DNA of 64,000 nt from a virus, in IMG/VR virus record IMGVR_UViG_3300022698_000267, positions 163,575 to 227,574 of that record; one strand, written 5' to 3'. Position numbers and translations under genes: made by a program. This document shows positions 8,965 to 60,666 of the stretch, piece by piece. The stretch's first letter is position 1, and every line of letters begins with the position of its first letter. The notes beneath the pieces are model-generated. The model worked only from the letters and a program-made list of their open reading frames with translations. It was not told where the DNA came from and did not search any database.

Positions 8965-9009
8965 TACAGTATAACACTCCTTATTATTCGTAATCTTTGT
9001 TAAAGGTTT

Positions 9010-20382: not shown

Positions 20383-20390
20383 GAAGCAAT

Positions 20391-35912: not shown

Positions 35913-36586
35913 TGTTTTCACTTTATAGCATTTTTGATTCAATCGATGGAGAAGTAAATGCTTTTCATCAAGGAGTTCTTACCACTTTTATTAGATTTTC
36001 TCAGTGTAATTTATCATGTAAGTGGTGTGATACACAATATGCCGCAAAGAGATCAGATGGTATGGAAATTAGTTTGTCTAATCTTTTAGAGGATCTCTTT
36101 GCTTCCAGAGGGGAAAAATTAAAGAAAGTGACAATTACTGGTGGTGAGCCTTTACTACAAGAGGAGTTATCTACTCTATTGCAGGAATTAGTTGCTAGAG
36201 ATATTAAAGTTTCAATAGAAACTAATGGAACTTTAGAACCGATTCAACAATTCGTAGGTATTCCAGAAGTTTGTTGGGTCTATGATTTTAAGTTGAAGAA
36301 TTCTGGGCAGCGTAATAGAATGAATTTAAATGCTTTTGGATTCCTTTCGAAAAATGATTTTGTAAAGTTTGTTGTTGGGAGTTCTGATGATGTTAAAGAA
36401 GCTATGGATGTAGGAAAGGTTCTAAGAGAAAATGGTTGTGAAGCAAAGTTTGCATTTTCTCCAGTACATGACGAATTTACTCCACAACAGCTTTTAAGGG
36501 AGATTGAAATTTATGGTACTGGAGATGAAATTATAAACCTCCAATTACATAAGTACATTTGGGGAATAACGAAGGAAGAACACTAG
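35912..36586 (+). CDS. queE: 7-carboxy-7-deazaguanine synthase (QueE), radical SAM
   Basis: 224 residues. The radical-SAM cluster motif is CNLSCKWCDT with RFSQ before it, followed by VTITGGEPLLQ (SAM binding) and VSIETNGTLE. QueE rearranges carboxytetrahydropterin to 7-carboxy-7-deazaguanine. It overlaps QueD by one base, so the two are made together. Confidence 0.92.
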   Translation: MFSLYSIFDSIDGEVNAFHQGVLTTFIRFSQCNLSCKWCDTQYAAKRSDGMEISLSNLLEDLFASRGEKLKKVTITGGEPLLQEELSTLLQELVARDIKVSIETNGTLEPIQQFVGIPEVCWVYDFKLKNSGQRNRMNLNAFGFLSKNDFVKFVVGSSDDVKEAMDVGKVLRENGCEAKFAFSPVHDEFTPQQLLREIEIYGTGDEIINLQLHKYIWGITKEEH

Positions 36587-36603
36587 AGGGGAGGAATTTA
36601 AAA

Positions 36604-37311
36604 ATGGTTAGAGCACTGATTCGAGAATCTTATCAAGCTTTATTGGAAACAAAATTGGTTCCAGGTGTAGAATCGAAAGAATTTGATATGGAGAACGATG
36701 ATTTACAGAAGCTATGTGACAGTTTTCTAGACTCTGTTGAATTGGTTCCTATTGAAAAGGAACAATTAATTCCACCAAAAGTTATTGATTTATACAATGA
36801 CATTGTGGATGGAATAGTTGTGGTTACTGAAACTTCTACGGCTGCTGAGCCATCAAAAGAGGAAGAGAAGAAGCCAGAGGTATCAGAGGAGGATGAAAAG
36901 TTGATCTCTTCTGCTCAAGAGAAAGTTGCTAAAGAACTTCTTGAAGATAAAGATGGATCAAAACCTGAACCAAAGAAGGCTGAATCAAAGAAGGCTGAAT
37001 CAAAACCTGAACCAAAGAAGGCTGAATCAAAACCTGAACCAAAGAAGGCTGAATCCGATTCTGACACTGGTATTAATATTTTTGGTAGAAGAAAGAATAG
37101 CAAGTACGGATTCATTGATGAAAAGCTTTTAGAAGGCATTACAATGGATAGTTTGGTTTCTATAGTTTCCGAGAAATTTGATATGGATCCAAAGAAAACG
37201 TTGGGAACTATAAAAGCTCATATTCGAAATGTCACAAATAAAAGAAACGAAGCCGATTGTTTGGAGGAAGAGGATGGAATTCTTCGTTTCGTCCAGAAGG
37301 AGGCTTCATAA
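36604..37311 (+). CDS. Hypothetical protein with PEPK/KAES repeats
   Basis: 235 residues from the ATG at 36604 (GGGGAGG upstream); the open frame extends back to 36559. The middle consists of KPEPKKAES repeats (DNA repeat at 36961-37056), a disordered linker. The C-terminal ~75 residues look globular (GFIDEKLLEGITMDSLVSIV), possibly a small helical or winged domain. Located inside the 7-deazaguanine operon between QueE and FolE2, so a linked role is possible. Confidence 0.5.
   Translation: MVRALIRESYQALLETKLVPGVESKEFDMENDDLQKLCDSFLDSVELVPIEKEQLIPPKVIDLYNDIVDGIVVVTETSTAAEPSKEEEKKPEVSEEDEKLISSAQEKVAKELLEDKDGSKPEPKKAESKKAESKPEPKKAESKPEPKKAESDSDTGINIFGRRKNSKYGFIDEKLLEGITMDSLVSIVSEKFDMDPKKTLGTIKAHIRNVTNKRNEADCLEEEDGILRFVQKEAS
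36961..37056 (+). repeat. In-frame repeats coding KPEPKKAES
   Basis: Three copies of a 27-base unit (AAACCTGAACCAAAGAAGGC plus TGAATCA) with an extra AAGAAGGCTGAATCA half unit. They form a Lys/Glu/Pro linker like that of the SSB at 48107. Confidence 0.8.
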
Positions 37312-38114
37312 TGGATGAGTTGATGGACGTACAAAAAACTAAACCTATTCATCAAATACCAATAGATTTTGTTGGGATTGGTGGATTCAAACTTCCAATT
37401 TGTGTTAGCACAAAGGCAGGACCATATCAAAATACCATTGCAGATGTTACTGTGTATGGAAATCTTCCAGCAGACAAAAAAGGGATTGATATGAGTAGAA
37501 TCCCAATAGCTATACAAAAGTTTTCTGGTCAAAGATTAGATGTCAGTGTAACGAATGAAGTGGCCGAACATATACGAAGAAAGTTGGAAGTAGATTTGTG
37601 TAAAGTGACTTACAAATTCCCTTATTTTCTACAAAAGATTGCACCTGTGAGTAGAGAGCCCGGAATAGTATCTTATGATGTAACATTTCATCTAATAAAG
37701 ACAGAAGACTCTTCTGATTTTTATATGTCTATAGTTGTCTTTGGCACTAGTTTGTGTCCATGTAGTAAAGAAATCAGTGAAAATTCGGCGCATAATCAAA
37801 GGGTTCGGGTTAAAGTAGGTTTAAAACCATTTGCTGATCAATTCATATGGATAGAGGATATTATAACTCTTGTTGAGGCTTCATGCTCTGGACAAATGTA
37901 CAGTGTTTTAAAAAGAGTGGATGAAAAGCATGTCACTGAAACAATGTACGATAATCCAAAATTTGTAGAAGATATTATACGGGAATGTGCTTTCCGACTA
38001 TCTTTAGAAAAGTCAGTGGAAAAGTACAATATTACTGTAAGTTCTCAAGAAAGTATTCATCAACATGATGCAATTGCTATTGTGTCTGGAAAGAATGGGG
38101 TCGATAATGACTGA
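37311..38114 (+). CDS. folE2: GTP cyclohydrolase IB (FolE2)
   Basis: 267 residues from the ATG at 37311, with AAGGAGG 7 bases upstream. The hallmark TSLCPCSKEISENSAHNQR of FolE2/MptA cyclohydrolases is intact. It converts GTP to 7,8-dihydroneopterin triphosphate, the entry step to 7-deazaguanines. FolE2 (metal-flexible) instead of FolE is notable. It overlaps the preceding stop by one base and the following methyltransferase by 8 bases. Confidence 0.93.
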   Translation: MDELMDVQKTKPIHQIPIDFVGIGGFKLPICVSTKAGPYQNTIADVTVYGNLPADKKGIDMSRIPIAIQKFSGQRLDVSVTNEVAEHIRRKLEVDLCKVTYKFPYFLQKIAPVSREPGIVSYDVTFHLIKTEDSSDFYMSIVVFGTSLCPCSKEISENSAHNQRVRVKVGLKPFADQFIWIEDIITLVEASCSGQMYSVLKRVDEKHVTETMYDNPKFVEDIIRECAFRLSLEKSVEKYNITVSSQESIHQHDAIAIVSGKNGVDND

Positions 38115-38736
38115 ATGGAAAAGTGAGGTTCGAATTGAAAATTCACTTCCTGTACAAGGTTTGAAACTTCATGTTGGTTGTGGCAGAAGAATTCTGGAAG
38201 ACTATATAAATATTGATATAACCAGAACGCTTTTGAAAGACTTAGATCTTTTCCTTTCCGATTCTGAAGTCAATTACATAAATCAAAGTTTTATTGAATG
38301 CTCATCTGATGATATGCCTCTACCAGACGAATGTGCTGCTGAGATTCTATGTGAACATACTCTAGAACATCAAACTCCAGAAGAGATATATGAAACTCTA
38401 TGGGAGTTTGCCAGAGTATTAAAGCCTGATGGTATACTAACTGTTTCTGGTCCAAATTTCGCACACTTTGCTAAGACATTCGATAAGTACAAAAACAACT
38501 ATCTGGATTCCATTGATGTTATGTATGCAATTCTTTGTAATACCAGAAATGTTAAAAGAATGTCACCCCATAGAAGTTTATTGTGGGCAGAGTTTCTGGT
38601 TCCATTGGTTAGAAGGAGTGGTTTTACTATCCTGGAGGTTATAGAAAATGATGAACTGAAAATTATAGCTTCTAGAGATAGTGATCGAGTTGTTAGGGTC
38701 CTTAATGTCCAAGGAGGTGAAAAAGATGAAAGTTAG
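38107..38736 (+). CDS. SAM-dependent methyltransferase
   Basis: 209 residues from the ATG at 38107. The class I motif KLHVGCGRRILEDYINIDI, then EILCEHTLEHQTPEEI and RVLKPDGILTVSGPN are typical of small-molecule or nucleotide methyltransferases. It lies between FolE2 and QueC, overlapping both by short stretches. It could modify a 7-deazaguanine or pterin intermediate, or an unrelated glycan; the operon position is the only evidence for the former. Confidence 0.7.
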   Translation: MTEWKSEVRIENSLPVQGLKLHVGCGRRILEDYINIDITRTLLKDLDLFLSDSEVNYINQSFIECSSDDMPLPDECAAEILCEHTLEHQTPEEIYETLWEFARVLKPDGILTVSGPNFAHFAKTFDKYKNNYLDSIDVMYAILCNTRNVKRMSPHRSLLWAEFLVPLVRRSGFTILEVIENDELKIIASRDSDRVVRVLNVQGGEKDES

Positions 38737-39688
38737 AAACTTTGCAAAAACCATAATGACAAATTTTAGTTATGGTGTACAAGAGATTTCAACTGATATT
38801 GATTTAGATCAAGCTTCGGAAATCTTAAATTGTATGATTGATATTAAGGAAAAACCGGAAGGTTTTGTTCCAAAATTGAATACTATGGATTTGAAGAGTC
38901 TGGGGTTGAATGAACGTGCTGACTTTGTTCTTCTGCTAACTGGAGGGTTAGATAGTACACTAGCCTACTTTCGTCTACTAGATGAAGGTTACAAATCTAT
39001 TTTTCCAATCTACGTAGATTTTGGACACCCTTATGCAGAGAAAGAAATTAAGGCTTTGCATAAATTGAAAATAGATTTTTTCTATTACAAAGAAATTGTT
39101 CCAGTTCGATATGATGGTCCTTGGGAACATATTATCCCAGCCAGAAATTTATATCTTCTTGGAATAGCATCTGAAATAGCCAGAGACGGTGGTGAAATTT
39201 GGATATCTTCCGTTGCCGGAGAGACACCAGAATATGGTGGAGACAAATCTTTGACCTTTTACAAACAAGCTCATGATTTGATAAAAACAACTTCTGGGAA
39301 AGATATTTCCATAAAATGTATGAATGAAAGAACAAAGTCCGGTTGGGTTTCATGGTTTTTAAATGAATGCCTGATGGATGAATTGACATACGAAGATAAG
39401 GTGGGAATTTTAAAAACCACAGTTTCTTGTTTTTCAGGGCACAGTCATTTGAATTGTGGGAAATGTAGAGCTTGTCTTAGAAAATGGATATGTCTAACAT
39501 ACAATGATGTAGATTGTGACGATATGTTTGAAGTTCATCCATATCATGGTGCTGGTGAGTTAGTACAAGAGTACAAAGACAGAATGAGCGTTGCTTTACA
39601 AAACAGCGATTTCTCATACTTTACTAAAAATAGGTGTAAAGAGACTTTGTCGGTTTTCAAAAGATTTGAAGAAGGACTTCTTTCTTAA
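38726..39688 (+). CDS. queC: 7-cyano-7-deazaguanine synthase (QueC-like)
   Basis: 320 residues from the ATG at 38726 (AAGGAGGTG upstream). PP-loop LLTGGLDSTLA, PIYVDFGHPYAEKE and the zinc motif CGKCRACLRKW define QueC, which makes preQ0 from carboxy-deazaguanine with ATP and ammonia. It has an extra N-terminal ~65 residues and a C-terminal extension, so it is longer than typical QueC (about 230 residues). Confidence 0.88.
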   Translation: MKVRNFAKTIMTNFSYGVQEISTDIDLDQASEILNCMIDIKEKPEGFVPKLNTMDLKSLGLNERADFVLLLTGGLDSTLAYFRLLDEGYKSIFPIYVDFGHPYAEKEIKALHKLKIDFFYYKEIVPVRYDGPWEHIIPARNLYLLGIASEIARDGGEIWISSVAGETPEYGGDKSLTFYKQAHDLIKTTSGKDISIKCMNERTKSGWVSWFLNECLMDELTYEDKVGILKTTVSCFSGHSHLNCGKCRACLRKWICLTYNDVDCDDMFEVHPYHGAGELVQEYKDRMSVALQNSDFSYFTKNRCKETLSVFKRFEEGLLS

Positions 39689-39714
39689 AATAAAAGATTT
39701 GGAGGGTTTTTCCT

Positions 39715-40845
39715 ATGAGTAAGAAAATAAAAATTGCAATTATGGGCCTTGGAAACTGTTCGTGTTCTCTCATCCAAGGCATTCACTACTATTCGAAAGA
39801 TGAACATATGCCAAAAAATCCAGAAGATCCAAAAGATTTTGTACCTGGATTAATGCATTGGGATTTGGCTGGTTACAAACCAGGTGACATTGAAGTGGTT
39901 GCAGCATTTGATGTTGACAGACGAAAGGTTGGTCGTGACGTATCGGAAGCTATTTTTCAAAGACCTAATTGCACGAAGGTTTTTGAGCCAGATATTCCTG
40001 AGTATGGGGTTACAGTTCATATGGGTGTAATTTTGGATGGAGTTGCTCCACATATGGCAAATTATCCAGAAGATTGTGCATTTTCCACGGCTAATGAAAT
40101 ACAACCTTCTAAAGAGCAGATAGTTGAGATTCTAAAAAAATCTGAAGCTGATATTGTCGTAAATTACCTTCCAGTTGGTTCCCAAAAAGCTGTAGAATTC
40201 TATGCTGAATGTACATTAGAAGCTGGTTGTGGTTTTGTGAACTGCATACCAGTTTTTATTGCAAGTGATCCAGAATGGGAAGAAAAGTTTGCTAAAGCAA
40301 ATTTGCCCATTGTTGGTGACGATATCAAGTCTCAGGTTGGAGCTACGATTGTACATAGAATTCTTACAGATCTTTTCAAGAAACGTGGTGTTCCTTTGGA
40401 CACGACTTACCAGATAAATTTTGGTGGAAATACAGACTTCTTAAATATGTTGAATCGAGATAGACTGGTTAGCAAGAAAATCTCGAAGACAGAAGCTGTA
40501 CAATGTCAAGCAAAACACAGATTGTCCGATAGAAATATTCATGTTGGACCAAGCGATTATATTCCATGGTTAGATGACAATAAGATCTGTAATATTAAGA
40601 TGAATGGTCGTCTATTTGGGGATGTTCCAATGGATATCGAACTTCGGCTTTCAGTGGAAGATTCACCAAATTCTGCTGGTGTGGTAATCGATGCTGTTCG
40701 TTGCTGTAAATTGGCTCTGGACAGGGAAACAGGTGGATGTGTGTATCCAGCTAGTGCTTATTTCATGAAACATCCACCCAAACAATATCAGGACGATGTT
40801 GCTTACCGATTGGTAGAATCGTTCATTATAGGAGGAACAGAGTGA
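39715..40845 (+). CDS. ino1: Myo-inositol-1-phosphate synthase, actinobacterial/archaeal type
   Basis: 376 residues, matching the ~365-residue short prokaryotic INO1. NAD+-binding start AIMGLGNCSCSLIQG, then VPGLMHWDLAGY, VAAFDVDRRKVGRDV, the active-site block GDDIKSQVGATIVHRIL, NFGGNTDFLNML and VEDSPNSAGVVIDAVRC follow mycobacterial Ino1 closely. It converts glucose-6-phosphate to inositol-1-phosphate with NAD+ as cofactor. It sits between QueC and DpdA, 26 bases after the former and overlapping the latter by 4, so it is part of that operon. An inositol synthase in a phage is highly unusual. Confidence 0.9.
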   Translation: MSKKIKIAIMGLGNCSCSLIQGIHYYSKDEHMPKNPEDPKDFVPGLMHWDLAGYKPGDIEVVAAFDVDRRKVGRDVSEAIFQRPNCTKVFEPDIPEYGVTVHMGVILDGVAPHMANYPEDCAFSTANEIQPSKEQIVEILKKSEADIVVNYLPVGSQKAVEFYAECTLEAGCGFVNCIPVFIASDPEWEEKFAKANLPIVGDDIKSQVGATIVHRILTDLFKKRGVPLDTTYQINFGGNTDFLNMLNRDRLVSKKISKTEAVQCQAKHRLSDRNIHVGPSDYIPWLDDNKICNIKMNGRLFGDVPMDIELRLSVEDSPNSAGVVIDAVRCCKLALDRETGGCVYPASAYFMKHPPKQYQDDVAYRLVESFIIGGTE

Positions 40846-41609
40846 ACTTTTTCTTAGATAGTGGTGCCTTTTCTGCTTTTACTCAAGGTTCAGCCATAGA
40901 TCTAGATTCATACATCTCTTTTATCAAACAAAATGAAAAGGATGTGACAGTTTACGCAAATTTGGATGTTATTGGTGACGTCGAGGCCTCTTGGGAAAAT
41001 CAACGATATATGGAAAGCAAAGGATTAACTCCATTGCCAGTTTTTCACGTTGAAGATCCAATAGAATATCTATACAAATGTATGGATTATGATTATTTCT
41101 GTCTTGGTGGTATGGCTTCTGCTACAATGGACCTTCGAATTAACTTTTTAGATAAATGCTGGTATATTATCTGTGATACACCAGACAACATGCCAAAAAA
41201 CAAAGTGCATGGTTTTGGTATGACCGCACATAAATTGATGTTTCGATATCCATGGTATTCTGTAGATAGTACTAGTTGGTCGCAGACTGCAGGATTTGGA
41301 AACATTTTTGTTCCAAGAAAAACGGTGAATGCTGAATTTGATTTCACAGAACCTCCTTTCAAAATATCTGTTTCAGATGAAAGTCCCAGTAAATCCGAAT
41401 ACGATATTCATATTGAAACTGCAACTGATGCTGCTAGAGAACACATCTTGAAATACTTTGATTTGATAGGTATAACTGAAATTGGTGTGAAAACCAGTCA
41501 TTGGAATAGACGATATGTGAATGTCACTTTCTTTACTGGTGTTGCTAAGGCACTAACTTGGCCAAGGCCATTCAAACCAAAGTTGATTAATAAAGGCTTT
41601 GGTCTCTAG
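40842..41609 (+). CDS. dpdA: DpdA-like TGT-family DNA transglycosylase
   Basis: 255 residues, GTG start at 40842 overlapping the previous stop (GTGA), AGGAGGAAC upstream. The TIM-barrel TGT pattern is compact: FFLDSGAFSAF (base-binding Asp), VYANLDVIGD, YFCLGGMASA, GFGMTAHKLMF and SVDSTSWSQ (candidate nucleophile Asp). This fits short phage DpdA proteins that exchange guanine in DNA for preQ0-type bases, rather than bacterial tRNA Tgt (about 370 residues). With FolE2, QueD, QueE and QueC it completes a route to 7-deazaguanine in DNA. Confidence 0.78.
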   Translation: MNFFLDSGAFSAFTQGSAIDLDSYISFIKQNEKDVTVYANLDVIGDVEASWENQRYMESKGLTPLPVFHVEDPIEYLYKCMDYDYFCLGGMASATMDLRINFLDKCWYIICDTPDNMPKNKVHGFGMTAHKLMFRYPWYSVDSTSWSQTAGFGNIFVPRKTVNAEFDFTEPPFKISVSDESPSKSEYDIHIETATDAAREHILKYFDLIGITEIGVKTSHWNRRYVNVTFFTGVAKALTWPRPFKPKLINKGFGL

Positions 41610-42021: not shown

Positions 42022-43042
42022 GGACTTGAAAAGCATATGTCAGAAGTTACGTCCTGGTTTAGATAGACAGAAGTCTTTGATAGAGCATTTCAGACATATC
42101 TGTTTTACTGGAAAACGAATTATTACATTCAATGAAAGAATCTGTGTTGCATATCCATTTGAAACAAGTTTTTCATGTTCGGTTTCTGGACACGATTTTA
42201 TTAATATGATTTCTAATCTTCCTCAGAATGAAGACATAGTTATTCGAATGGTCAAAGATATGCTGCGAATTCGTGGTGAAGGCACTAGTATTAAGATGTC
42301 TACTTACAATGACCAGAAACTTTCAGGTATATATGAAGATGCTTTCAATAAAGATTTTGAATGGCTGCCTCTTCCAGAAGATTTTATGGAAGCAATTAAC
42401 CTATGTCATTTCACAGTTGCCAAAGATTTAACCAGGCAATATCTTAACTACATCAAAATATCTGCTTCTGATGTAACAAGTTCTGATAATTTAAGAATTT
42501 CTAAATATAACTTAAAATCTGCAGTAGAAAAAGACTTTTTTATCCCAGGTAACGTTTGTAAACCTCTGCTACAGTACAAGGTTACTTCTTTTTGTATATC
42601 CGAGCCTTGGTTAGGATTTAAGACCGACGATGATATTGAATTCTTTTGCAGAACTTCTGATATTGAATATCCAGATGTTTCTGCTCTATTTGAATTCGAA
42701 GGTGAAACTTTTAATCTGCCCACCGAATTAAAAGCCATAGTTGAATCATTAACAGTTGTAACAGAGGAGGATTTTTTAACGGACAGACACATGACGGTGA
42801 CTATAAAGGACAATATAGTATCCTGTTTTGTCGAGAAAGAGACTGTGTCGGCAAATAGGTGGGTTGAAACCGATATTAACAGGGAATTGTCATTTGTAAT
42901 TAACCCAGTATTCTTCAATGAAATATTGGAGAAAACCCGAACCATAAAGATTTCAGAAGGGAGAGCTCTCTTTATGGCGGGTAATTTCAATCATCTTCTA
43001 GCGCTTCCGGTTAAGAGTAAAGGAGAAAGTAATGATTCTTAG
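42011..43042 (+). CDS. dnaN: DNA polymerase sliding clamp (DnaN-like)
   Basis: 343 residues from the ATG at 42011 (AAGGAGGA 9 bases upstream). Three clamp-like repeats are visible: RIITFNERICVAYPF, FCISEPWLGFKTDDD and FVINPVFFNEILEKT, with the C-terminal ALFMAGNFNHLLALPV that matches the end of beta clamps. A ring that tethers the polymerase. It is followed directly by the polymerase and clamp loader, a complete processivity set. Confidence 0.75.
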   Translation: MKVKDLKSICQKLRPGLDRQKSLIEHFRHICFTGKRIITFNERICVAYPFETSFSCSVSGHDFINMISNLPQNEDIVIRMVKDMLRIRGEGTSIKMSTYNDQKLSGIYEDAFNKDFEWLPLPEDFMEAINLCHFTVAKDLTRQYLNYIKISASDVTSSDNLRISKYNLKSAVEKDFFIPGNVCKPLLQYKVTSFCISEPWLGFKTDDDIEFFCRTSDIEYPDVSALFEFEGETFNLPTELKAIVESLTVVTEEDFLTDRHMTVTIKDNIVSCFVEKETVSANRWVETDINRELSFVINPVFFNEILEKTRTIKISEGRALFMAGNFNHLLALPVKSKGESNDS

Positions 43043-45773
43043 TACTGAAGGTTTCTTCTTTAAAGAACCAACCTTGGCGGAGAAAAAAGCGGCTAGGAAG
43101 AGGGATTACAGTAAAGGTAATTCATCCAAGCCAAAGAAAAAAAGAGCAGCTTCTGGAAGTACAAAAACTGTTGATCAAAAATTGAAAGATAATCCTTGTG
43201 AAGTTTGTGGTCTTTACAAGAAAGGATGTGAATCTCCATTCATGCAGTATACAGGAGAAGGAAGAACAAAAGCCCTTATTATTGGGGAAGCTCCAGGTGC
43301 TGCAGAAGACGCAAAGTGGAAAAAATTGGGATATGATGTTCCAACTCAGTTTATTGGTGATGCTGGACAACTTCTTAGAAAGGAACTTCGTCTTCTTGGG
43401 TATAATCTGGATAAAGATTTTTGGAAGGTAAATGCTTGTAATTGTAGACCTCCTGGGAATGCCACACCAACTACCAAACAATTGAAAGCCTGTTGGAATT
43501 TCATAGTAGAACCAACCATTAAAAAGTTGAAACCAAAGGTCATTTTTCTAATGGGAGGAGCAGCAGTTGCTCAATACTTTGCAAAAATCTCTGGAAGTAA
43601 GAATGTTCTTGGTATAAATAGATGGAGAAGGCTTTGTATTCCAGATTTGGATTACGATGTTTGGGTAGTTCCTCTATTTCATCCGTCTTTCATTTTAAGG
43701 AAAAGAAATGATGCAAATCTAAAATCGGTTTATCAAAGAGATTTAAAATTTGCAATTTCTGCCATTTCTAAACCAAAGATTGAAAGAATTGATTATGAAT
43801 CTAAAGTAGAAATTGTAAAAGATTTTGATAGAGTCTGTGAGGTTTTAATAGAAGCTAGAAAACAGAAGTTTATAGTTTTCGATTTTGAAACCTCTGGAAA
43901 GAAACCTTATGATTCTAAACATAGAATATGGTCTATGTCTTTAGCTTGGAACAGAGAAAAGGCCTATTCTTTTGCTTATCAATATCCTGGATGTTGGACA
44001 GATGAGCAATTAAAAACAATTCAGATATTAGTTGCTGAATTATTAAATGATGAAAATGTTTTAAAAGGTGCACACAACCTGAAGTTCGAGCATCTTTGGT
44101 CTTGTAAATTCTTTACGGAACCGAAGAATTGGATTTGGTGTACTATGTTAACTGCTCATATTTTAGATAATAGGGGTGGTATTAGTGGATTAAAATTTCA
44201 GGTTTTCTATAGATATGGAATTCCAGATTATGGAGCTAGTCTACATCAACTTATGATAAAGAAGGATCAGAATGGATTAAATCTATTGTATAAAGCTGAT
44301 CTGGATGAATTGCTATTATATGGTGGATTAGACAGTTTGTTCACTTTCATGCTGTTTGAGGATCAAAAATTAGAGCTCAGACGTTATAAGAATACGTTAA
44401 ATATGGCTCATCCATTTTTTCATAAAGGCATTCTGGCTTTAGCAAGGGCTGAAATGAATGGATTTAATGTATCCATGGATTTTTATGAAGAAAAAGATGG
44501 AGAGCTTGCTGACCAGATTGCAGAAATAGAGCATCGATTAGTTAATGGAGATTATGGTTCCAAATTTAGAGAGATAGAAGGAAAGGATATAAATCCCAGA
44601 TCTACTTCCGATATTAAAAAGTTATTCTTTGATATTCTAAATATGAAACCTTTGAGAATGACTGACAAAGGGAATCCTGCTTTAGATAAATCTTGTATGG
44701 AAGAATGGAATCTACCATTTACCAATGACATTCTACAGTTGAGGATGTTGGAGAAGATAAAAGGGACATATCTGGCTCAGTTTAAAAGAGAGGTTAATGA
44801 AGATGGAAGAATACACCCAAACTTTAATCTTCACATTCCAAGGACTTATAGATCTAGCTCCAATGAACCAAATTTTCAGAACATTCCGGTTCGCAGCAAA
44901 TTAGCAAAGGAAGTTACTAGAGGAGGAATAATTCCAAGTCCTGGTAACAGACTAATGGAAGGTGACTTTGGTAGCCTTGAAGTTAGAATTTCTGCTTGTT
45001 ATCATAAAGATCCCAATATGTTAACGTACATCAATGATCCCACTACTGATATGCATAGGGATAGTGCAGCTGATATTTGGCTGCTAGAAACAGATGAAGT
45101 TTCAAAAGATATTCGATTTTATGCTAAAAATGGTTGGGTTTTCCCACAGTTCTATGGTGATTGGTATGATTCTTGTGCAAGGGGATTATGGGGTAATTGC
45201 TTAGAATTACAAACGGAAAGAAATATAAGTTTATATGATCATATTAGGTCTAAAGGAATTAAAAATCTGGAAGATTTTATTGCTCATTGTAAAGATGTGG
45301 AAGACAAATTTTGGAACGTTCGTTTTAAAGTCTATAAAAAATGGAAGGATAAGATTAATAAGCAGTATAGAGATCAGGGTTACATAGAAACATACTTTGG
45401 TTTTCGTCTCGGTGGATACATGGGGAAGAAGGATGTTACTAATTATCCTATACAAAGCAGTGCTTTCCATTGTCTTCTATGGTCATTCATTAGGGCAGAT
45501 GAAATAGCTCGTAAAGAAAGATGGAAGAGTAAGTTGATTGGTCAAATTCATGATAGTATTATAGCCGATTTGCATCCTGATGAAACGTATCATGTCATTG
45601 ACACTTTGAATAATATTATGAATGTTCAAATGCGAGAAGAGCTTCCCTGGATTATTGTTCCTTTGGAAGTGGACTTTGAACTAACTGGAATAGATCAACC
45701 ATGGTCAACGAAGGACGATTTTGATCTATCGCAATTATCAATTAAAAAAGAGGAAGAGGAGATGATGCTATGA
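43032..45773 (+). CDS. Family A DNA polymerase fused to an N-terminal family-4-like uracil-DNA glycosylase
   Basis: 913 residues. Residues ~50-245 carry Fe-S UDG motifs: CEVC (C56, C59), IIGEAPGAAED, NACNCRPPGN, a later Cys in LKACW and PLFHPSF (H217). A DEDDy-type 3'-5' exonuclease follows (FIVFDFETSG, D284 and E286; AHNLKFEHLW). The polymerase core has RSSSNEPNFQNIPVR, MEGDFGSLEVR (D645) and QIHDSIIADLH (D841). There is no 5'-3' exonuclease, which is supplied separately at 14602. It overlaps the clamp gene by 11 bases and the clamp loader by 4. Fusion of UDG and polymerase suggests surveillance for uracil at the fork. Confidence 0.88.
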   Translation: MILSTEGFFFKEPTLAEKKAARKRDYSKGNSSKPKKKRAASGSTKTVDQKLKDNPCEVCGLYKKGCESPFMQYTGEGRTKALIIGEAPGAAEDAKWKKLGYDVPTQFIGDAGQLLRKELRLLGYNLDKDFWKVNACNCRPPGNATPTTKQLKACWNFIVEPTIKKLKPKVIFLMGGAAVAQYFAKISGSKNVLGINRWRRLCIPDLDYDVWVVPLFHPSFILRKRNDANLKSVYQRDLKFAISAISKPKIERIDYESKVEIVKDFDRVCEVLIEARKQKFIVFDFETSGKKPYDSKHRIWSMSLAWNREKAYSFAYQYPGCWTDEQLKTIQILVAELLNDENVLKGAHNLKFEHLWSCKFFTEPKNWIWCTMLTAHILDNRGGISGLKFQVFYRYGIPDYGASLHQLMIKKDQNGLNLLYKADLDELLLYGGLDSLFTFMLFEDQKLELRRYKNTLNMAHPFFHKGILALARAEMNGFNVSMDFYEEKDGELADQIAEIEHRLVNGDYGSKFREIEGKDINPRSTSDIKKLFFDILNMKPLRMTDKGNPALDKSCMEEWNLPFTNDILQLRMLEKIKGTYLAQFKREVNEDGRIHPNFNLHIPRTYRSSSNEPNFQNIPVRSKLAKEVTRGGIIPSPGNRLMEGDFGSLEVRISACYHKDPNMLTYINDPTTDMHRDSAADIWLLETDEVSKDIRFYAKNGWVFPQFYGDWYDSCARGLWGNCLELQTERNISLYDHIRSKGIKNLEDFIAHCKDVEDKFWNVRFKVYKKWKDKINKQYRDQGYIETYFGFRLGGYMGKKDVTNYPIQSSAFHCLLWSFIRADEIARKERWKSKLIGQIHDSIIADLHPDETYHVIDTLNNIMNVQMREELPWIIVPLEVDFELTGIDQPWSTKDDFDLSQLSIKKEEEEMML

Positions 45774-46714
45774 GCGAAGGACCATTACAGATTTCGTGTC
45801 GACCAGATACTTTCGAAGATTTTGCAGGAAACAAGGGAACTGTTGCTTCTTTAAAAAGCGTATTAGAAAGAGAAGAAGGAAAAATCCCAAAATGTCTTTT
45901 ATTTCATGGTCCTAGTGGTTGTGGAAAAACTACTTTAGTTCGAATTATTAGGGACAAAATTGGAACTCACGTAGACGATTTTGTGGAAATTAATGCCGCT
46001 CAGAATAGAGGCATTAATGAGATGAAACAGATATTGGTCGAAGCTCCCTATTTTCCATTGCATGGTAAAAGTAAAATATACATGTTTGATGAAGCACATA
46101 TGCTTACCCCAGAGGCCCAAAATAGTTTACTGAAATTTTTGGAAGAGCCTCCCAAACATGTCTATATAGCTTTATGTACTACTGAACCTCAAAAGCTATT
46201 AAAAACCATGCGAACTAGAAGTACGGCTTTTGTGGTTAAAAAGCAACCACTTCCAACAATAATGAAATTGTTAATGTGGGCTTGTAAAAGAAATGATCTT
46301 GCTATTTCAAAGGTTATTCTTAGAAAGATAGCAACTGTTGCTGATGGTTGTCCAAGACAGGCACTTGTGATTTTAGATTCTATCTATTCTTTGACAGATG
46401 AAGAACAAATTTTGGATGTAATCGAGACTTATAGCGAAGTTGGAGAGCTTTTGTCTGCTAATACCCTAGAACTTTGTCAAGCCTTACTGGCGCAAAGAAA
46501 GTGGGATGTTGTTTCAAAAATACTAAATAATGTTGAGGGGGAACCAGAAAATATCCGTTATGGAATTCTAGCCTATATGACTAAAGTTTTGCTTGGTGGA
46601 GATGAGCCACTAGCAGCTGCAGTTATTGAACAATGTAGAGGATCTTATATGTACACAAAGAAAGCAGGATTAGTGTACGATTGCTATATGATTACTACTC
46701 TTGGAGATGAATAA
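45770..46714 (+). CDS. AAA+ clamp loader subunit
   Basis: 314 residues. Walker A GPSGCGKTT (47-55), Walker B IYMFDEAHML, sensor-1 region CTTEPQKLLKTMRTRS and a helical C-terminal domain resemble DnaX/RFC small subunits. It would open the phage clamp at 42011. No second subunit is seen in the window, so it may be a homo-oligomer or use another subunit elsewhere. ATGA overlap with the polymerase gene. Confidence 0.85.
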   Translation: MSEGPLQISCRPDTFEDFAGNKGTVASLKSVLEREEGKIPKCLLFHGPSGCGKTTLVRIIRDKIGTHVDDFVEINAAQNRGINEMKQILVEAPYFPLHGKSKIYMFDEAHMLTPEAQNSLLKFLEEPPKHVYIALCTTEPQKLLKTMRTRSTAFVVKKQPLPTIMKLLMWACKRNDLAISKVILRKIATVADGCPRQALVILDSIYSLTDEEQILDVIETYSEVGELLSANTLELCQALLAQRKWDVVSKILNNVEGEPENIRYGILAYMTKVLLGGDEPLAAAVIEQCRGSYMYTKKAGLVYDCYMITTLGDE

Positions 46715-47317: not shown

Positions 47318-48343
47318 ATGGCATCAATTAGAGAAAAAATGAAGGAAAAGCTCGCCAATCGTGTAAAACAATCTTACAATAGAAGGGAAGGGCAAAATAA
47401 GTCCTACTTCAAATCAGACATTGACGCTAGCTTTTGGAAGGTGTCAGAGGATGATCATATTATTGATATTATCCCTTATCTGGCAGGTGAATTCGATCCA
47501 TTAACCAAACCTGGCGATCCAACCTATGCATTGGAAATTTATGCTCATCAGGGTGTTGGCACAGATGAACGTGCAATGATTTGCATGTTGGAAAATTATG
47601 GCAAACCTTGTCCAATCTGTGAGCATCGAAAGGAACTGAGAAATCAGTATCCAGATGACAAAGATATGTGGAAACATTTGTATCCCAAACGTAGAATGGT
47701 TTACAATATTGTTTGTTACGACTCCAGAAAAGAAGAGGACAAGGGTGTTCAAATTTGGGAAGTGGCTTGGTGGTTCACTGAAAGGCACTTTGTTAAACTG
47801 GCCAGAGAATCGAAGAGACCGGGACATGGCGACACTACTTATATTCCTTTCGCTGATCCAGATGATGGAAAAATGATCTCCTTTAGTCGTGAAGGTCAGG
47901 GTGCTCAAAATACTTCATTTGTTGCTCATAAATTTGTTGATAGAGATGTTCCAATTTCCAATGAGATTTTGGATGCAGCACATATCTTGGATGAACTTTT
48001 GTATCTACCAACTTACGAAGAAGTTTATGAGTTGTATTACCAACAACCCCCTCCTTCTTCTAAAGAGGAAGAAAAACCAGATGGTCCAACTAGGGGAGGT
48101 TCTGTGAAACCTGAACCGAAACCTGAACCGAAACCTGAACCGAAACCTGAACCGAAACCTGAACCGAAACCTGAACCAAAACCGGAACCGGAACAGAAAT
48201 CTGAATCTACAACTTCCGATGGTGAAGAAATTCCTCAATGTCCTGGTGGAGGGGAGTTTGGAGTTCACACTGATGAACTAGATGCTTGTGAGAATTGTAG
48301 CCTCTGGCCACCTTGTGCGAAGAAGAACGATCAGAACTCATAA
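47318..48343 (+). CDS. gp32-like single-stranded DNA-binding protein
   Basis: 341 residues, AGGAGG site. The core (FWKVSEDDHIIDIIPYLAG, CPICEH, YNIVCYDSRKEEDKG, ISFSREGQG) matches gp32-type SSBs, including a zinc-like CPIC. After a KPEP repeat linker (from ~264) there is an extra C-terminal metal motif CPGGGEFG...CENCSLWPPC instead of the usual acidic tail. It protects replicating ssDNA and coordinates with the recombinase at 49292. Confidence 0.75.
   Translation: MASIREKMKEKLANRVKQSYNRREGQNKSYFKSDIDASFWKVSEDDHIIDIIPYLAGEFDPLTKPGDPTYALEIYAHQGVGTDERAMICMLENYGKPCPICEHRKELRNQYPDDKDMWKHLYPKRRMVYNIVCYDSRKEEDKGVQIWEVAWWFTERHFVKLARESKRPGHGDTTYIPFADPDDGKMISFSREGQGAQNTSFVAHKFVDRDVPISNEILDAAHILDELLYLPTYEEVYELYYQQPPPSSKEEEKPDGPTRGGSVKPEPKPEPKPEPKPEPKPEPKPEPKPEPEQKSESTTSDGEEIPQCPGGGEFGVHTDELDACENCSLWPPCAKKNDQNS
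48107..48190 (+). repeat. 12-base tandem repeat encoding KPEP
   Basis: Seven units of AAACCTGAACCG (the last two slightly changed), making a Lys-Pro-Glu-Pro linker in the SSB. Length is likely variable between related phages. Confidence 0.9.
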
Positions 48344-48367: not shown

Positions 48368-48371
48368 AAAT

Positions 48372-48408
48372 GGTGATATGTCTATTTTGCGTATCACCAT
48401 TTTTATTT
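48372..48408 (+). terminator. Intrinsic terminator-like hairpin in the metacaspase leader
   Basis: GGTGATA (48372-48378) pairs with TATCACC (48392-48398), loop 13 bases, followed by ATTTTTATTT. It could end the SSB transcript, or attenuate transcription entering the metacaspase gene because a promoter-like motif lies just before it. Confidence 0.65.
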
Positions 48409-48422
48409 ACGGGGGAATTACG

Positions 48423-49283
48423 ATGAAAAAGGCATTATTAGTTGGTATAAACGAATATCAAGGGTCTCCTTTAAAGGGGTGTGTCAACGATTGTTTGTTG
48501 ATGTATAAAATGCTCACCGAAGAATTTGATTTTGAAACCAAGGACATTAAACTGCTTACAGACCATGAGGCCACACAAGACAGAATATTGCTTGGTTTGT
48601 CAGCTTTGACGAGTGATGTACAACCAGGCGACACTATATACTTCCATTACAGTGGACATGGTTCTCAGGTGGCAGTAAATGATTGGACAGATAACTTTGA
48701 ACCTGATGGAAGGGATGAGATTTTATGTCCTGTGAATTTAAATTGGGATTTTCCTCTTAGAGACCAGATGGTTGGCAGTTTTTTCAAAGATTTACCAAAG
48801 GAAGTAAATGTGGTTGTTGTTTTGGATTGTTGTCATTCTGGTACTGGTCTCAGGGCTCCAATTAATTCAAATTTAGATGGACCAAAGTGGTTAGCAAACC
48901 GGTTTTTGCCACCTCCCCCATCTAAACTTCTTTCTAATCCATTAATTCGAGTTGATGCAGACATGAATTTTATACTTCCAGAACCAACTGAGGATCTTAG
49001 ATCTATAAAGCGTCCTTTCTTGGTTGATACAGTAGAACAGGGACATGTCATTTTAATTACTGGTTGTCAAGACAATCAGACTAGTGCAGACGCATATCTA
49101 GCAGGTACTTATCGTGGAGCTTTAACTTATTGTCTATACTACGTCCTTTCAAAAAGGAAATTTAACATGAGTTATGAAAAACTAGTCATAGAGATCAATC
49201 GTTTGTTAGATAATAAACGATATGACCAAAATCCACAATTAGAATGTCTTCCTGAATACAAAAACAGAAAATTTTTGGGATAG
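48423..49283 (+). CDS. Metacaspase-like cysteine peptidase (caspase fold, C14)
   Basis: 286 residues from the ATG at 48423, with GGGGG upstream; the in-frame ATG at 48378 lies inside the terminator-like hairpin. The caspase fold starts KKALLVGINEYQGSPLKGC, has the catalytic His in FHYSGHGSQ (H79), the acidic P1 pocket around EPDGRDEILCP, and the catalytic Cys in VVLDCCHSGTG (C137). This is a type I metacaspase without prodomain, expected to cut after Arg or Lys. It lies between SSB and RecA in a replication operon. Phage metacaspases are rare; roles could be maturation proteolysis or interference with host cell death. Confidence 0.88.
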   Translation: MKKALLVGINEYQGSPLKGCVNDCLLMYKMLTEEFDFETKDIKLLTDHEATQDRILLGLSALTSDVQPGDTIYFHYSGHGSQVAVNDWTDNFEPDGRDEILCPVNLNWDFPLRDQMVGSFFKDLPKEVNVVVVLDCCHSGTGLRAPINSNLDGPKWLANRFLPPPPSKLLSNPLIRVDADMNFILPEPTEDLRSIKRPFLVDTVEQGHVILITGCQDNQTSADAYLAGTYRGALTYCLYYVLSKRKFNMSYEKLVIEINRLLDNKRYDQNPQLECLPEYKNRKFLG

Positions 49284-49291
49284 GAGGACTC

Positions 49292-50446
49292 ATGGCAGAA
49301 TCTAAATTAAAAAGAGATAAAAGGCAGAAGTTAAAAGAAGGCTTAGCCGGAGCAGAGGAAGTGACTAAAAAAGAAGAAGCTAAAGCAAAAGCGGCTATTG
49401 ACAAAAAGACCAAAGAACAAATGCAAGAAATTGTTGATGAAGTCATTGAAACTTCTATCGAACAAGACATCAGCGATTTAAACGAACCCATACCTTTGGA
49501 AGAAGATTACTTAGTTTCTACTGGATCCACTTTATTGGATCTTAATATTTGTGGAAGTAGGATTAGAGGTGGGGGAATACCTGCAGGTATTCTATGTGAA
49601 TTCTTCGGTCCAAGTGGATGTGGAAAAACAGCTGTTCTTTCTGAAATAGCTACTAGTACACAAGTTAGAGGTGGAAGTGTACTTTATGCTGATCCAGAAG
49701 CTCGTTTGGATAGAAATTATGCTGAAACGTATGGGTTGAAAATCAATGAAGATGAGTATTCACGTCCAGATACGGTTTCACAACTCTTCGAAGTTCTTTG
49801 GGGTTGGAAGCCAAAGAATCCGAATGTGATAAATACGATTGCTTCAGATTCTCTTGCAGCTCTTTCCACAGAATTAGAAATGGATTCAGCAGACAAAATG
49901 GGGATGAGAAGAGCAAAAGAGTTCTCAGAAGGTCTTAGAAAGACGTGTAGGATCATTAAGAACAAAAAGTATATCATAGCATGCTCGAATCAAATTCGGG
50001 GTGGTACAGGGGGTACAGTAACTCCAGGAGGAAATGCAGTGCCTTTCTATGCTTCACTTCGAGTTTCCATGTGGCCTTTACATTCTGAGAAAGTGCAAAT
50101 AACCAAGGAACTTCCTAGCGGAAAAAGGGTTCCCAGAGTTATTGGTATTAAATCTTCCTGCGAAATTATTAAATCTTCAATTGATAATCCTTTTAGGACA
50201 TGCGACATTTACATTATTTTTAATCATGGAATTGATGACATTCGAGGAAATTTACAATGGAGGAAAGATGTTACTGGTGATACCAAGTATGATGTCTTCG
50301 ATAAAGGTTATGTAGCAATGAATGATGCTATTAGATACATCGAAGCTCAGGATTATGAAGACAAACTTAGAGAGGAGGTGATAGATCTTTGGGAAGAAAT
50401 TGAAAAGAAATTTGTGATTACTCGGAAGAAAAAGAAACGTAGATAG
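49292..50446 (+). CDS. RecA/UvsX-family recombinase
   Basis: 384 residues, GGAGG site. An acidic/basic N-terminal extension of ~70 residues, then GSTLLDLNICGS, Walker A GPSGCGKT (106-113), ASDSLAALST and CSNQIRGGTGGTVTPGG (L2-like loop), and a basic C-terminus (VITRKKKKRR). It catalyses strand exchange and recombination-dependent replication with the SSB and UvsW-like helicase. It follows the metacaspase gene by 8 bases. Confidence 0.9.
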   Translation: MAESKLKRDKRQKLKEGLAGAEEVTKKEEAKAKAAIDKKTKEQMQEIVDEVIETSIEQDISDLNEPIPLEEDYLVSTGSTLLDLNICGSRIRGGGIPAGILCEFFGPSGCGKTAVLSEIATSTQVRGGSVLYADPEARLDRNYAETYGLKINEDEYSRPDTVSQLFEVLWGWKPKNPNVINTIASDSLAALSTELEMDSADKMGMRRAKEFSEGLRKTCRIIKNKKYIIACSNQIRGGTGGTVTPGGNAVPFYASLRVSMWPLHSEKVQITKELPSGKRVPRVIGIKSSCEIIKSSIDNPFRTCDIYIIFNHGIDDIRGNLQWRKDVTGDTKYDVFDKGYVAMNDAIRYIEAQDYEDKLREEVIDLWEEIEKKFVITRKKKKRR

Positions 50447-50491
50447 AAGTATGCAATCGACGGTACTTCAAAGATTGAGAAGGAGTTGATT

Positions 50492-50947
50492 ATGGCAGTG
50501 TTTGGAATTGGTGCAAGATACGATACTCAGTGGGTTCACGAAGATTTTATTAGGAACAATATTGCATGTATCGGTCATGAAGAAGAAAATGCTCCAGAAA
50601 TATATCGAGATTTTCGAAGGATTACCAATGGTGATATCATATACATGAAGTCATTGGGTCCTAGATCCGATAAATTGTGTATCATGGGAGTAGGAATTGT
50701 TACAAACTCTAAAGTTCAAGAATTTTATGAGGGCAAAGGCAAAGATAAAATCTACTGGGGAAATGGTGTTAAGGTCTGGTGGATTTGGACAGAAGAGATT
50801 TACTTTAAAACAAATCCAGAACGTGATTATCATTGGCATAGGCGATTAGGCACTTTTTATGAAGAATGTAACCCTAAAATTCATCGTAAAGTGATCCGAC
50901 TTCTTTTAAAACCAAGAGGTCAATGTCCTAAAGGCTTATTCACCTAG
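50492..50947 (+). CDS. Hypothetical protein, possibly EVE/PUA-like
   Basis: 151 residues from the ATG at 50492 (AGAAGGAG 7 bases upstream). The start MAVFGIGARYDTQWVHEDF and the block NGDIIYMKSLGPRSDKLCIM resemble EVE/PUA-like folds that read modified bases, but the match is by eye only. The structured repeat element follows it. Confidence 0.4.
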   Translation: MAVFGIGARYDTQWVHEDFIRNNIACIGHEEENAPEIYRDFRRITNGDIIYMKSLGPRSDKLCIMGVGIVTNSKVQEFYEGKGKDKIYWGNGVKVWWIWTEEIYFKTNPERDYHWHRRLGTFYEECNPKIHRKVIRLLLKPRGQCPKGLFT

Positions 50948-54028: not shown

Positions 54029-54982
54029 TTGGGAAAAAACAATGGTAGAATTCTAAAAATTATTGATGGTTCAGCTAATACTCCTTTGGTTGATGACATC
54101 TGTTTCAATTCTAATTTAATTGGTTCGGAAGTCAAAGATGTTGTTAGTACATTTTCCGATAAAGAAACTCAAATAGAAATCGAAGAAAATATGCGAGGTT
54201 GTGATGTATTTGTGATTCAACCTACTTCTTCACCAGCCAATGAACATTTGATGCAATTATATTTCATACTAGATGCTTTAAAAAGAAGTAATTGTTGGCG
54301 GGTTACGGCAGTTATTCCTTACTATGGTTATGGAAGACAGGATAAAAAGTTGAAGCCCAGAGTTCCAATCTCTGCCAAATCTGTAGCCAGTTTAATTGAG
54401 TTTGGTGGAGTTAATAGAGTCCTCACTATGGATCTTCATGCTAATCAAATTCAAGGATTTTTTAATTGTCCAGTTGACAATTTATTTGCATCTTCCATAT
54501 TTTTGCCTTATATGCGTAAGCATGTAGACCCAAATTCTGTGATAGTATCACCAGATGAAGGTGGAATTGCCAGGGCGGTTCATTACTCTAAAGCTTTAGG
54601 ACTTCCTGCAGCAATGATTCATAAATCAAGACTCATAGCAAATGAAGTTGACAAGATGATACTATTAGGTTCTGTAAGAAATATGCACGCAATCATTATC
54701 GATGATATGTGTGATACAGCAACCACACTTTGTAAAGGTGCTGCTATTTTAAAAGATGCTGGAGCATTAAGTGTGGAAGCTTTTGTAACACATGGTGTAT
54801 TTTCCGGTAAGGCTTACGAAAAAATAGCAGATTCTGCCTTCGAGGTTGTTAATGTGACAGATTCAATAAAACAGTCGACTATTTACACAGAAAAAATCAA
54901 TGTCATCTCTTGTGCAGACCTTTTTGCAAAAGCAATTTTGAATATTCATGATGAAACTTCAGTTAGTTGTCTCTTCGAGTAA
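54029..54982 (+). CDS. prs: Ribose-phosphate pyrophosphokinase (PRPP synthetase)
   Basis: 317 residues, TTG start at 54029 with GGGGGG 7 bases upstream. FSDKETQIEIEENMRG, VIPYYGYGRQDKK (ATP/metal loop), VLTMDLHANQIQGFF and the PRPP loop IIIDDMCDTATTL are all in place, with SPDEGG. It makes PRPP from ribose-5-phosphate and ATP, the substrate of nicotinate phosphoribosyltransferase at 61940 and of purine synthesis. Confidence 0.93.
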   Translation: MGKNNGRILKIIDGSANTPLVDDICFNSNLIGSEVKDVVSTFSDKETQIEIEENMRGCDVFVIQPTSSPANEHLMQLYFILDALKRSNCWRVTAVIPYYGYGRQDKKLKPRVPISAKSVASLIEFGGVNRVLTMDLHANQIQGFFNCPVDNLFASSIFLPYMRKHVDPNSVIVSPDEGGIARAVHYSKALGLPAAMIHKSRLIANEVDKMILLGSVRNMHAIIIDDMCDTATTLCKGAAILKDAGALSVEAFVTHGVFSGKAYEKIADSAFEVVNVTDSIKQSTIYTEKINVISCADLFAKAILNIHDETSVSCLFE

Positions 54983-58648: not shown

Positions 58649-59518
58649 ATGGGTGGTGGAACATATTCATCAACAGCCAGAGCTACCAGGGCATTTCATT
58701 CTGGATATCATACGAAGTCGGCCCAAGAAATTTTTACCCAAAGAAACATCAACAATGCCATGAGCCCCTATGGTCTTGGGATTCGGGAATCCAGGGATTC
58801 AGAAGAGCATCCAAAATCATATCCGATTATACTAGGTCTTGACGTAACTGGATCGATGGGAAGCGTTCCTCATTTTCTGGTAAAGGAAGGTCTTCCGAAA
58901 ATCATGGATGGTATTATTGAAGCCGGAATTCCTGATCCTCAGGTTTTGTTTTTGGGGATTGGTGATCATCAAGTCGATGATGCTCCAATTCAAGTCGGCC
59001 AATTTGAAAGTTCGGATGAACTTCTGGATAAATGGTTGACCGATATTTATTTGGAAGGTGGGGGTGGTGCAAATGCCGGTGAAAGTTACTTTTTGGCCTG
59101 GTACGTTGCAGCCAAACACACTGAAACGGACAGTTTTATAAAACGTCAACAGAAGGGCATCCTTTTCACAATCGGTGATGAGCCAGATCTGCGTACTTTT
59201 TCTGGAAAGTCTGCAAAAAATATATTTGGTGCTGGTGAATATGCCAAAGAGTATTCGGACTTTGCATTGTTGGAAGAAGCAATGTTGACTTACAATGTAT
59301 TCCATATCAATATCAATGAAACCAGTTCCGGTTCCAGAAGAATGGTCCAAGATGGATGGAAACAAATTCTGGCAGACAACGCTTTATTTGCGAATCGGAG
59401 GGAAGATGTTGTTGGAATCATTACCGATAAGATTGTCGAAATTTACAAGGCCACAGAAACGGCGCCGACCATTGTACCGGAAGAGTACGTCGAAACATCA
59501 GTAGAGGAAATGCTGTGA
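58649..59518 (+). CDS. von Willebrand factor A (VWA) domain protein
   Basis: 289 residues, AAAGGAGG site. Gly-rich start, then LGLDVTGSMGSVPHF, a D-x-T-x-S MIDAS metal site, GGGGANAGESYFLAWY and FTIGDEPDLRTF (the third MIDAS element). VWA domains bind protein partners through a divalent metal. It overlaps the following PurA-like gene by 4 bases. A structural or chaperone-adaptor role is possible; partner unknown. Confidence 0.75.
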   Translation: MGGGTYSSTARATRAFHSGYHTKSAQEIFTQRNINNAMSPYGLGIRESRDSEEHPKSYPIILGLDVTGSMGSVPHFLVKEGLPKIMDGIIEAGIPDPQVLFLGIGDHQVDDAPIQVGQFESSDELLDKWLTDIYLEGGGGANAGESYFLAWYVAAKHTETDSFIKRQQKGILFTIGDEPDLRTFSGKSAKNIFGAGEYAKEYSDFALLEEAMLTYNVFHININETSSGSRRMVQDGWKQILADNALFANRREDVVGIITDKIVEIYKATETAPTIVPEEYVETSVEEML

Positions 59519-60666
59519 TATCAAAAGCCGTTATTGATTGCGGATTTGGAGATGCTGGCAAAGGAAAAGTTGTAAGTTACCTTTGTCAGCATTTCAGTAA
59601 TCCTTTGGTAATTCGTTTTTCTGGTGGACAGCAGGCTGCTCATCATGTCGTGCTGCCTGACGGTCCAGACCACGTTTTTTCCAATTTTGGTAGTGGTACC
59701 CTCCAGGGAGTTCCCACCTATTGGGCTAAATATTGTACAGTGGATCCAGTAGGAATTTTAAATGAATTAGACGTTCTGAAAGAAAAAGGCATTGAACCGA
59801 AATTATACATTGATAGTCTTTGTCCTGTGACAACTCCGTTTGAGAAGTATTTGAATGTTGTTCAAAATCGGAGAAACGAACATGGCAGTTGTCAAGTCGG
59901 TGTTGGACCAACTTATCAACGAGAAGAGGACTTTTTTCATTTGCAGTTCAGGGATCTTTTCAATCCTACTGTTCTCAAAATCAAATTGGATATGTTTCAG
60001 AAACATTACTATCCAATGTCCAGATATGCCCATTCTACATTACAGGCTGATGATTTTAAAAAAGCTGAAATTGAATTTTTCAGTTGTGTAGAAGAGTTGG
60101 TAAATTGTCCTAATGTAATTCGTGTTAGTCATTTTCCAAGTGGCTATGAAGATTACATTTTTGAATCTTCTCAAGGTCTTCTTTTGGATCAACATATTGG
60201 TTTTTTTCCTCATGTATCTAGGGGTAACTTTGGAACTAAAAATATACTGAATATGGGGTTTAATAGTTTTTCAGTAACTTTGGTTACAAGGGCATATCAG
60301 ACCCGTCATGGAAATGGACCAATGACCAATGAGGACATTCCTCATAAAATAAAGGTAAATCCGTATGAAGAAAATCCCGATGACAATGCTCAAGGCAAAT
60401 TTAGGATTTCTTTACTAGATTTGGATTTACTAAAGTATTCTATATACAGTGACCCTTACATTTTGAGTTTTAGAACTGAAGTAGATTTAATAATTACCTG
60501 TTTGGACTTGATTGATGAAGATTACAGACTTACAGTAGATGGGAAAGTTTGTGAATTTAAAAATGAAAGGGATTTTGTTCAGTGTATAAAGTCTGAACTT
60601 GCGATTGACAAAGTGCGTCTCAGTAGGACACCATTTCCAGAAGTGGAGCTTTTCGACTCTTTATAA
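59515..60666 (+). CDS. Divergent adenylosuccinate synthetase (PurA-like)
   Basis: 383 residues, GTG start. The GTP loop is FGDAGKGKVV (canonical GDEGKGK), then FSGGQQAAHHVVL in place of GGHNAGHT, and QVGVGPTYQREE in place of TTGRGIGPAY. The catalytic Asp and His equivalents are kept, while several substrate-contact residues differ. PurA joins IMP and aspartate with GTP. PurZ of diaminopurine phages replaces the Asp, which is not the case here. This may be a purine enzyme with altered substrate or a base-modifying ligase; the substrate is unknown. Confidence 0.7.
   Translation: MISKAVIDCGFGDAGKGKVVSYLCQHFSNPLVIRFSGGQQAAHHVVLPDGPDHVFSNFGSGTLQGVPTYWAKYCTVDPVGILNELDVLKEKGIEPKLYIDSLCPVTTPFEKYLNVVQNRRNEHGSCQVGVGPTYQREEDFFHLQFRDLFNPTVLKIKLDMFQKHYYPMSRYAHSTLQADDFKKAEIEFFSCVEELVNCPNVIRVSHFPSGYEDYIFESSQGLLLDQHIGFFPHVSRGNFGTKNILNMGFNSFSVTLVTRAYQTRHGNGPMTNEDIPHKIKVNPYEENPDDNAQGKFRISLLDLDLLKYSIYSDPYILSFRTEVDLIITCLDLIDEDYRLTVDGKVCEFKNERDFVQCIKSELAIDKVRLSRTPFPEVELFDSL

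Follow-up and report, generated by a model that had tools for sequence, protein, structure and literature searches.

A stand-alone metacaspase gene, maintained by purifying selection, in the replication operon of a jumbo phage

Work on metacaspases in plants, fungi, protists and bacteria has centred mostly on stress and cell death, and a gene of this type lying between two recombination genes of a phage raises the question of what such a protease does during infection. The gene was found in a 64,000-nucleotide stretch of DNA (the window) that covers bases 163575-227574 of a virus record 273,563 bases long. Among the products of this record is a T4-type major capsid protein (Gp23), which assigns it to a tailed jumbo phage and agrees with the phage setting proposed in an earlier note on this DNA.

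48423..49283, + strand, metacaspase (C14B family), 286 aa, identified from motifs, Pfam and PDB matches, alignment and an AlphaFold2 model

The open reading frame starts with ATG, and a ribosome-binding-site-like motif (GGGGGA) lies just 5' of it; an alternative in-frame ATG at 48378, which would give a protein of 301 aa, falls within a hairpin. The product matched Pfam Peptidase_C14 (E 1.3e-28, 100.7 bits vs. a cut-off of 21.4) and was the sole C14 protein of the 273.6-kb record. Its top PDB sequence matches were Metacaspase-1 (C. glabrata, yeast) and T. brucei MCA2 (E 1e-30 to 1e-23). The AlphaFold2 model, built from 26 homologues (pLDDT 82, pTM 0.84), was placed by Foldseek closest to plant metacaspases 9 and 4, followed by C. 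glabrata/yeast MCA1, GSU0716 and TbMCA2, so that its closest PDB folds were all metacaspases. Computationally, the protein is a metacaspase with a p20-then-p10 layout, as had been proposed:

residues about 1-150, p20-like part, with D23, S77, H79, D95/D98/E99, D135 and C137
residues about 150-205, linker, with a conserved R160 followed by a Pro-rich stretch
residues about 206-286, p10-like part, with GCQDNQTSAD at 214-223

The two motifs highlighted in the earlier note (His in YSGHGSQ and Cys in DCCHSG) were both found in the protein, the catalytic dyad being H79 (in FHYSGHGSQ) and C137 (in LDCCHSG). Loss of this dyad in relatives had been named as evidence that would count against the proposal; no loss was detected in the 82 readable viral homologues, all of which had both residues intact, and the one gap corresponded to a truncated contig (L203). 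Conservation was counted over 84 aligned rows (the window protein and 83 viral homologues): D135 and S139 were retained in every readable row, position 99 was acidic throughout, D23 was retained in 80 rows (the remaining 4 being gaps), D223 in 81 and Q269 in all 84. D23 and D135, which from work on TbMCA2 we take to form the acidic S1 pocket accommodating Arg/Lys at P1, were present by alignment in the window protein, and its predicted specificity is accordingly for Arg or Lys at P1.

The protein also carried EPDGRDE in the p20 and GCQDNQTSADA in the p10-like part. An acidic, calcium-linked p10 motif sets metacaspases apart from orthocaspases (PMC7965980), and the presence of the calcium-type motif GCxDNQTSAD ruled out an orthocaspase. 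An N-terminal pro-domain was absent: the protein begins at the first caspase strand, with room for an upstream extension of at most 15 aa. Of the earlier designation “type I metacaspase”, the second word was borne out but the strict eukaryotic type I label was not, because the pro-domain is missing and the top structural matches were plant type II enzymes. The window protein shares with type I metacaspases (yeast/Candida MCA1, T. brucei MCA2) the p20-p10 order, the His/Cys dyad, the S1 acids and the DG.DE/DD and GC.DNQTSAD motifs, but differs from them in the lack of a pro-domain, in being encoded by a phage and in its linker (R followed by a Pro-rich stretch). It resembles the plant type II enzymes in fold, Foldseek having ranked Arabidopsis MC4 and MC9 first for the model (E about 1e-20), but its linker has only ~55 residues, part of them modelled at low confidence, and its sequence is more similar to type I. 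Judged by its sequence, the window metacaspase is probably a catalytically competent, stand-alone enzyme.

The gene lies in an operon of replication and recombination genes:

43032..45773, + strand, family A DNA polymerase (PolA) with an N-terminal uracil-DNA-glycosylase-type domain
45770..46714, + strand, clamp loader subunit, operon context
47318..48343, + strand, gp32-type single-strand DNA-binding protein (SSB) with a Pro/Lys/Glu repeat linker (Pfam E 3e-12)
49292..50446, + strand, RecA/UvsX recombinase (Pfam E 5.8e-30)
50486..50947, + strand, uncharacterised 153-aa protein, with homologues near the metacaspase in contigs L003 and L005
51104..51679, + strand, PDDEXK/RusA-like nuclease, whose orthologue lies directly 5' of the metacaspase in contig L209

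The order in the window was beta-clamp, PolA, clamp loader, a gene of 186-189 aa, SSB, metacaspase, RecA, the 153-aa gene, the PDDEXK nuclease and ligase; the location between SSB and RecA reported earlier was thus confirmed by two flanking genes identified with Pfam. The related phage contig L003 had the same gene order from the clamp through the 153-aa gene, with about 65-75% identity to the window in the replication neighbours and 55% in the metacaspase. Vibrio phage SSP002, whose replication proteins are about 25-30% identical to those of the window, had the order clamp, PolA, thymidylate synthase, clamp loader, two hypothetical genes, SSB, thymidylate kinase and RecA. The place between SSB and RecA is taken by a metacaspase in the window and L003 and by a thymidylate kinase in SSP002, and is therefore a slot for varying accessory genes; the metacaspase is an optional insert in this gap and not a fixed component of recombination. 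A distant phage (L209) also had its metacaspase in the recombination region, immediately after the PDDEXK gene. Of the 21 phages having both genes, 3 had the metacaspase within 5 kb of RecA, where chance would give 1.4; the window phage and its sister L003 account for two of the 3. Phage metacaspases thus do not generally lie in a recombination setting: the SSB-RecA linkage held for the window and L003 but not across phages. This, together with the optional position, lends no support to a recombination-specific role. A specific link between the metacaspase and the gene at 50486, which recurs in L005, was discarded, as only three other homologues of the latter appeared in the scan, too few to judge.

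The gap between SSB and the metacaspase contained one structural element:

48368..48402, + strand, hairpin of 35 bases with a 14-bp stem and a T-rich tail

None of 200 shuffled sequences folded equally well (z -4.5), and the corresponding gap of L003 also held a hairpin, though one unrelated in sequence (z -6.6). The hairpin described in the earlier note is therefore real, and is probably a terminator or a 3'-end stabiliser of the SSB transcript. The promoter ascribed to the gene in the same note was not recovered: there was no sigma-70-like promoter on the + strand of the gap, and promoter-like matches across the region were only moderately in excess (55 vs. 39.9 in shuffles, sd 6.0). The gap may hold an unusual phage promoter that is not sigma-70-like.

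Several other genes of the window were noted. An adenylosuccinate-synthetase-like gene (59515-60666) matched a PHROG family labelled 2-aminoadenylosuccinate synthetase (E 1.8e-47), and its product matched NCBIfam PurZ weakly (E 6e-4 vs. 6e-32 for PurA); 2-aminoadenine DNA may be involved. Genes of the 7-deazaguanine type (34902-41609: QueD-like at 34902, QueC-like at 38681, TGT-like at 40842) suggest modification of DNA or tRNA. An inositol-3-phosphate-synthase-like gene (39715-40845), unusual in phages, was 45% identical to Stenotrophomonas phage proteins. The two topoisomerase II subunit genes were on opposite strands, about 8.7 kb apart (4598-7048, - strand; 15747-18107, + strand), and genes for PRPP synthetase (54029-54982) and nicotinate phosphoribosyltransferase (61940-63115) form a possible phage NAD supply pathway.

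Relatives of the metacaspase were almost absent from annotated phage records (1 of 50,697: LR745208, 485 kb, itself unannotated), but a profile-based scan of IMG/VR found them in 119 contigs of up to 485 kb, 80 of which were kept. A tailed-phage terminase exceeded the Pfam cut-off in 17 of 50 of these records, phage status being individually proven for those 17 alone. Many metacaspase-bearing viral contigs are fragments of large phages, and annotated collections miss the family almost wholly. BFVD gave 24 fold matches at E below 0.001, none of them a bacteriophage protein and all from viruses of eukaryotes; Medusavirus, HaV01, Clandestinovirus and Fadolivirus encode the same metacaspase fold as the window gene, but infect eukaryotes. 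Virus metacaspases have been described in eukaryotic giant viruses (PMC6450098), and caspases go unmentioned in the main text of a survey covering 224 jumbo phages (Iyer et al. 2021, PMC7824862); the widespread phage set therefore appears to have been overlooked. Metacaspases were reported earlier in phage-related operons of Clostridium botulinum (PMC3501461), which were inferred from bacterial genomes and are likened to the window protein by description only.

The tree, which had 119 rows, placed the window protein in a clade of six sequences, all viral (support 100/99), and in a group of 25, likewise all viral (90/88). Metacaspases of Bacteroidota (L022-L024) and Herpetosiphon (L026, L032), also stand-alone, were similar in size and motifs (30-36% identity) but fell outside the all-virus clade of the window. 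Some cellular sequences, notably from Bacteroidota, nested within other viral branches; cellular sampling consisted of 80 loci from a narrow pattern scan, and host exchange may therefore be under-counted. Gene swapping, considered when a first tree grouped the window with L004/L005 and not with L003, was rejected: with denser sampling the window and L003 metacaspases were sisters, at modest support (99/67).

For the three pairs with the lowest divergence, Nei-Gojobori dN/dS was 0.059, 0.088 and 0.115; it was 0.18 between the window and L003 (where dS was saturated) and about 0.06-0.24 overall. These low values, together with the dyad kept in all readable relatives, indicate that the enzyme is maintained by selection: purifying selection retains the phage metacaspase.

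Neighbours of the metacaspases in the clade of the window included hybrid sensor histidine kinases (L004, L135) and an HD_4-domain protein with PhoH (L132), which are signalling or stress-type genes unexpected in phage contigs. A C92 amidase was encoded near the metacaspase of L005. HNH genes, which are common mobile nucleases, recurred near several metacaspases.

A second protease was encoded by the same phage (G000), on the - strand and directly beside the terminase-like gene:

19956-20669 of G000:C1 (L212), - strand, ClpP-type protease with a complete-looking triad (GTIASMA, HQFRAG, ADAI)
20684-22756, terminase-like gene

The record had no match to an S77 or S78 protease. With a ClpP-type protease beside the terminase, head maturation has no obvious need for the metacaspase.

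The reading that we favour, tentatively and at a little short of an even chance, is an accessory, host-directed Arg/Lys endoprotease acting in the replication phase. The metacaspase would be a cytosolic cysteine endoprotease cleaving after Arg or Lys; as an accessory gene among replication and recombination genes, it would probably be made early or in the middle of infection; selected proteins of the host in the infected cell would be its most likely substrates, and their cleavage would serve host takeover or the disabling of a defence or stress response. We infer the activity, the P1 specificity, the timing, the host substrate and the benefit to the phage. An accessory protease is favoured because the enzyme is intact, selection is strong, presence is patchy and the operons change. 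A host-directed one is favoured because of the ClpP-type protease beside the terminase, the signalling or stress-type neighbours in the clade of the window and the argument that jumbo-phage peptidases of patchy occurrence may target proteins of the host, with conserved ones tracking virion type (Iyer et al. 2021, PMC7824862); the ClpP, ClpS and SprT of that survey are, like the window metacaspase, accessory protease genes of large phages. Against this reading, the window metacaspase had no recognisable defence gene or inhibitor partner next to it, genomic context cannot tell host from phage proteins as substrates, and the association of the sister clade with ClpX, Hsp20 and ClpS equally fits general protein turnover.

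That association was found in a cluster with the order ClpX, (two unknown genes, YkuD-like), metacaspase, Hsp20, ClpS and SufBD-like; in L146, L149, L160, L161, L168, L174 and L176 the metacaspase was between ClpX and ClpS, mostly adjoining Hsp20. The operon itself (ClpX/Hsp20/ClpS/SufBD-like; L146:2143-9233 and its relatives L147, L149, L160, L161, L168, L174, L176 and L224-L252) is conserved in large phages. A role in quality control or turnover of phage proteins, in which the metacaspase would trim or unlock Clp substrates, possibly by creating new N-termini for ClpS, gains from this arrangement, from the ClpP-type protease of G000 and from the N-degrons proposed to be generated by metacaspases in plants (PMC8037982). 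A scan for ClpS, however, found the metacaspase in 9 of the 28 Clp operons with enough upstream DNA and not in the other 19, making it an optional insert there too; G000 lacked ClpS, the phage ClpX and Hsp20 models found nothing in it, and the window metacaspase is outside any Clp operon. We consider turnover rather unlikely.

Several bacterial defence systems are driven by caspase-like proteases, and the PADLOC “caspase” model matched 26 of 26 members of A5. The metacaspase could thus be a death trigger or guard, killing or arresting the cell (for example, to block superinfection) or activating or pre-empting a caspase-linked defence (gasdermin, CHAT-type). But the metacaspase was not accompanied by any gasdermin, sensor or adaptor gene, and it stands alone, whereas many cellular relatives are long enough to imply fused domains. 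Such a role is unlikely.

Processing of phage structural proteins during maturation, one of the functions raised in the earlier note, is improbable. Head protein processing is common in phages, and the metacaspases of L001 and L005 are close to structural-looking genes, but in G000 the protease adjoining the terminase is the ClpP-type one, with all three triad residues. The metacaspase (record position 211997) lies among replication genes, far from the capsid gene (8466-9569) in the record as given, and its patchy presence also argues against virion processing. Its caspase fold and its replication operon set it apart from phage prohead maturation proteases, which lie among head genes and have an S77, S78 or ClpP-type fold. 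An 858-aa gene upstream of the capsid gene was considered as a protease-scaffold fusion (GLSIRGG by eye) and rejected, since no family and no PDB entry matched it and no phage protein did so credibly.

Processing of the neighbouring recombination proteins, such as removal of a Lys-rich SSB linker or activation of RecA, is very improbable. Both in the window and in L003 the metacaspase has SSB and RecA as its neighbours, it occurs independently in the recombination operon of L209, and the SSB linker of the window is rich in lysines (repeated Lys-Pro-Glu-Pro units at 48100-48200), but the linker of L003 is Pro/Ala-rich and lacks lysines, SSP002 has the same module without a metacaspase, and only 3 of 21 phages had the metacaspase near RecA (1.4 expected). 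That the gene is passenger cargo, carried without a selected role in infection, might be suggested by the patchy distribution and varied contexts, but is largely refuted by dN/dS far below 1 and by catalytic residues universally kept over deep divergence, and is scarcely credible.

A broader proposal, speculative and unlikely, is that large phages widely carry metacaspases as endoproteases for the infection phase and that in some lineages these, together with ClpX and ClpS encoded by the phage, “cut, then deliver”: cleavage after Arg/Lys would create N-termini, the suitable ones would be read by ClpS, and Clp would destroy the resulting fragments of host proteins. The roles of prokaryotic metacaspases are largely open, and the small, single-domain, intact enzymes of this large-phage clade would lend themselves to testing as compact proteins, with the benefit of a metacaspase measurable as phage yield or escape from defence.
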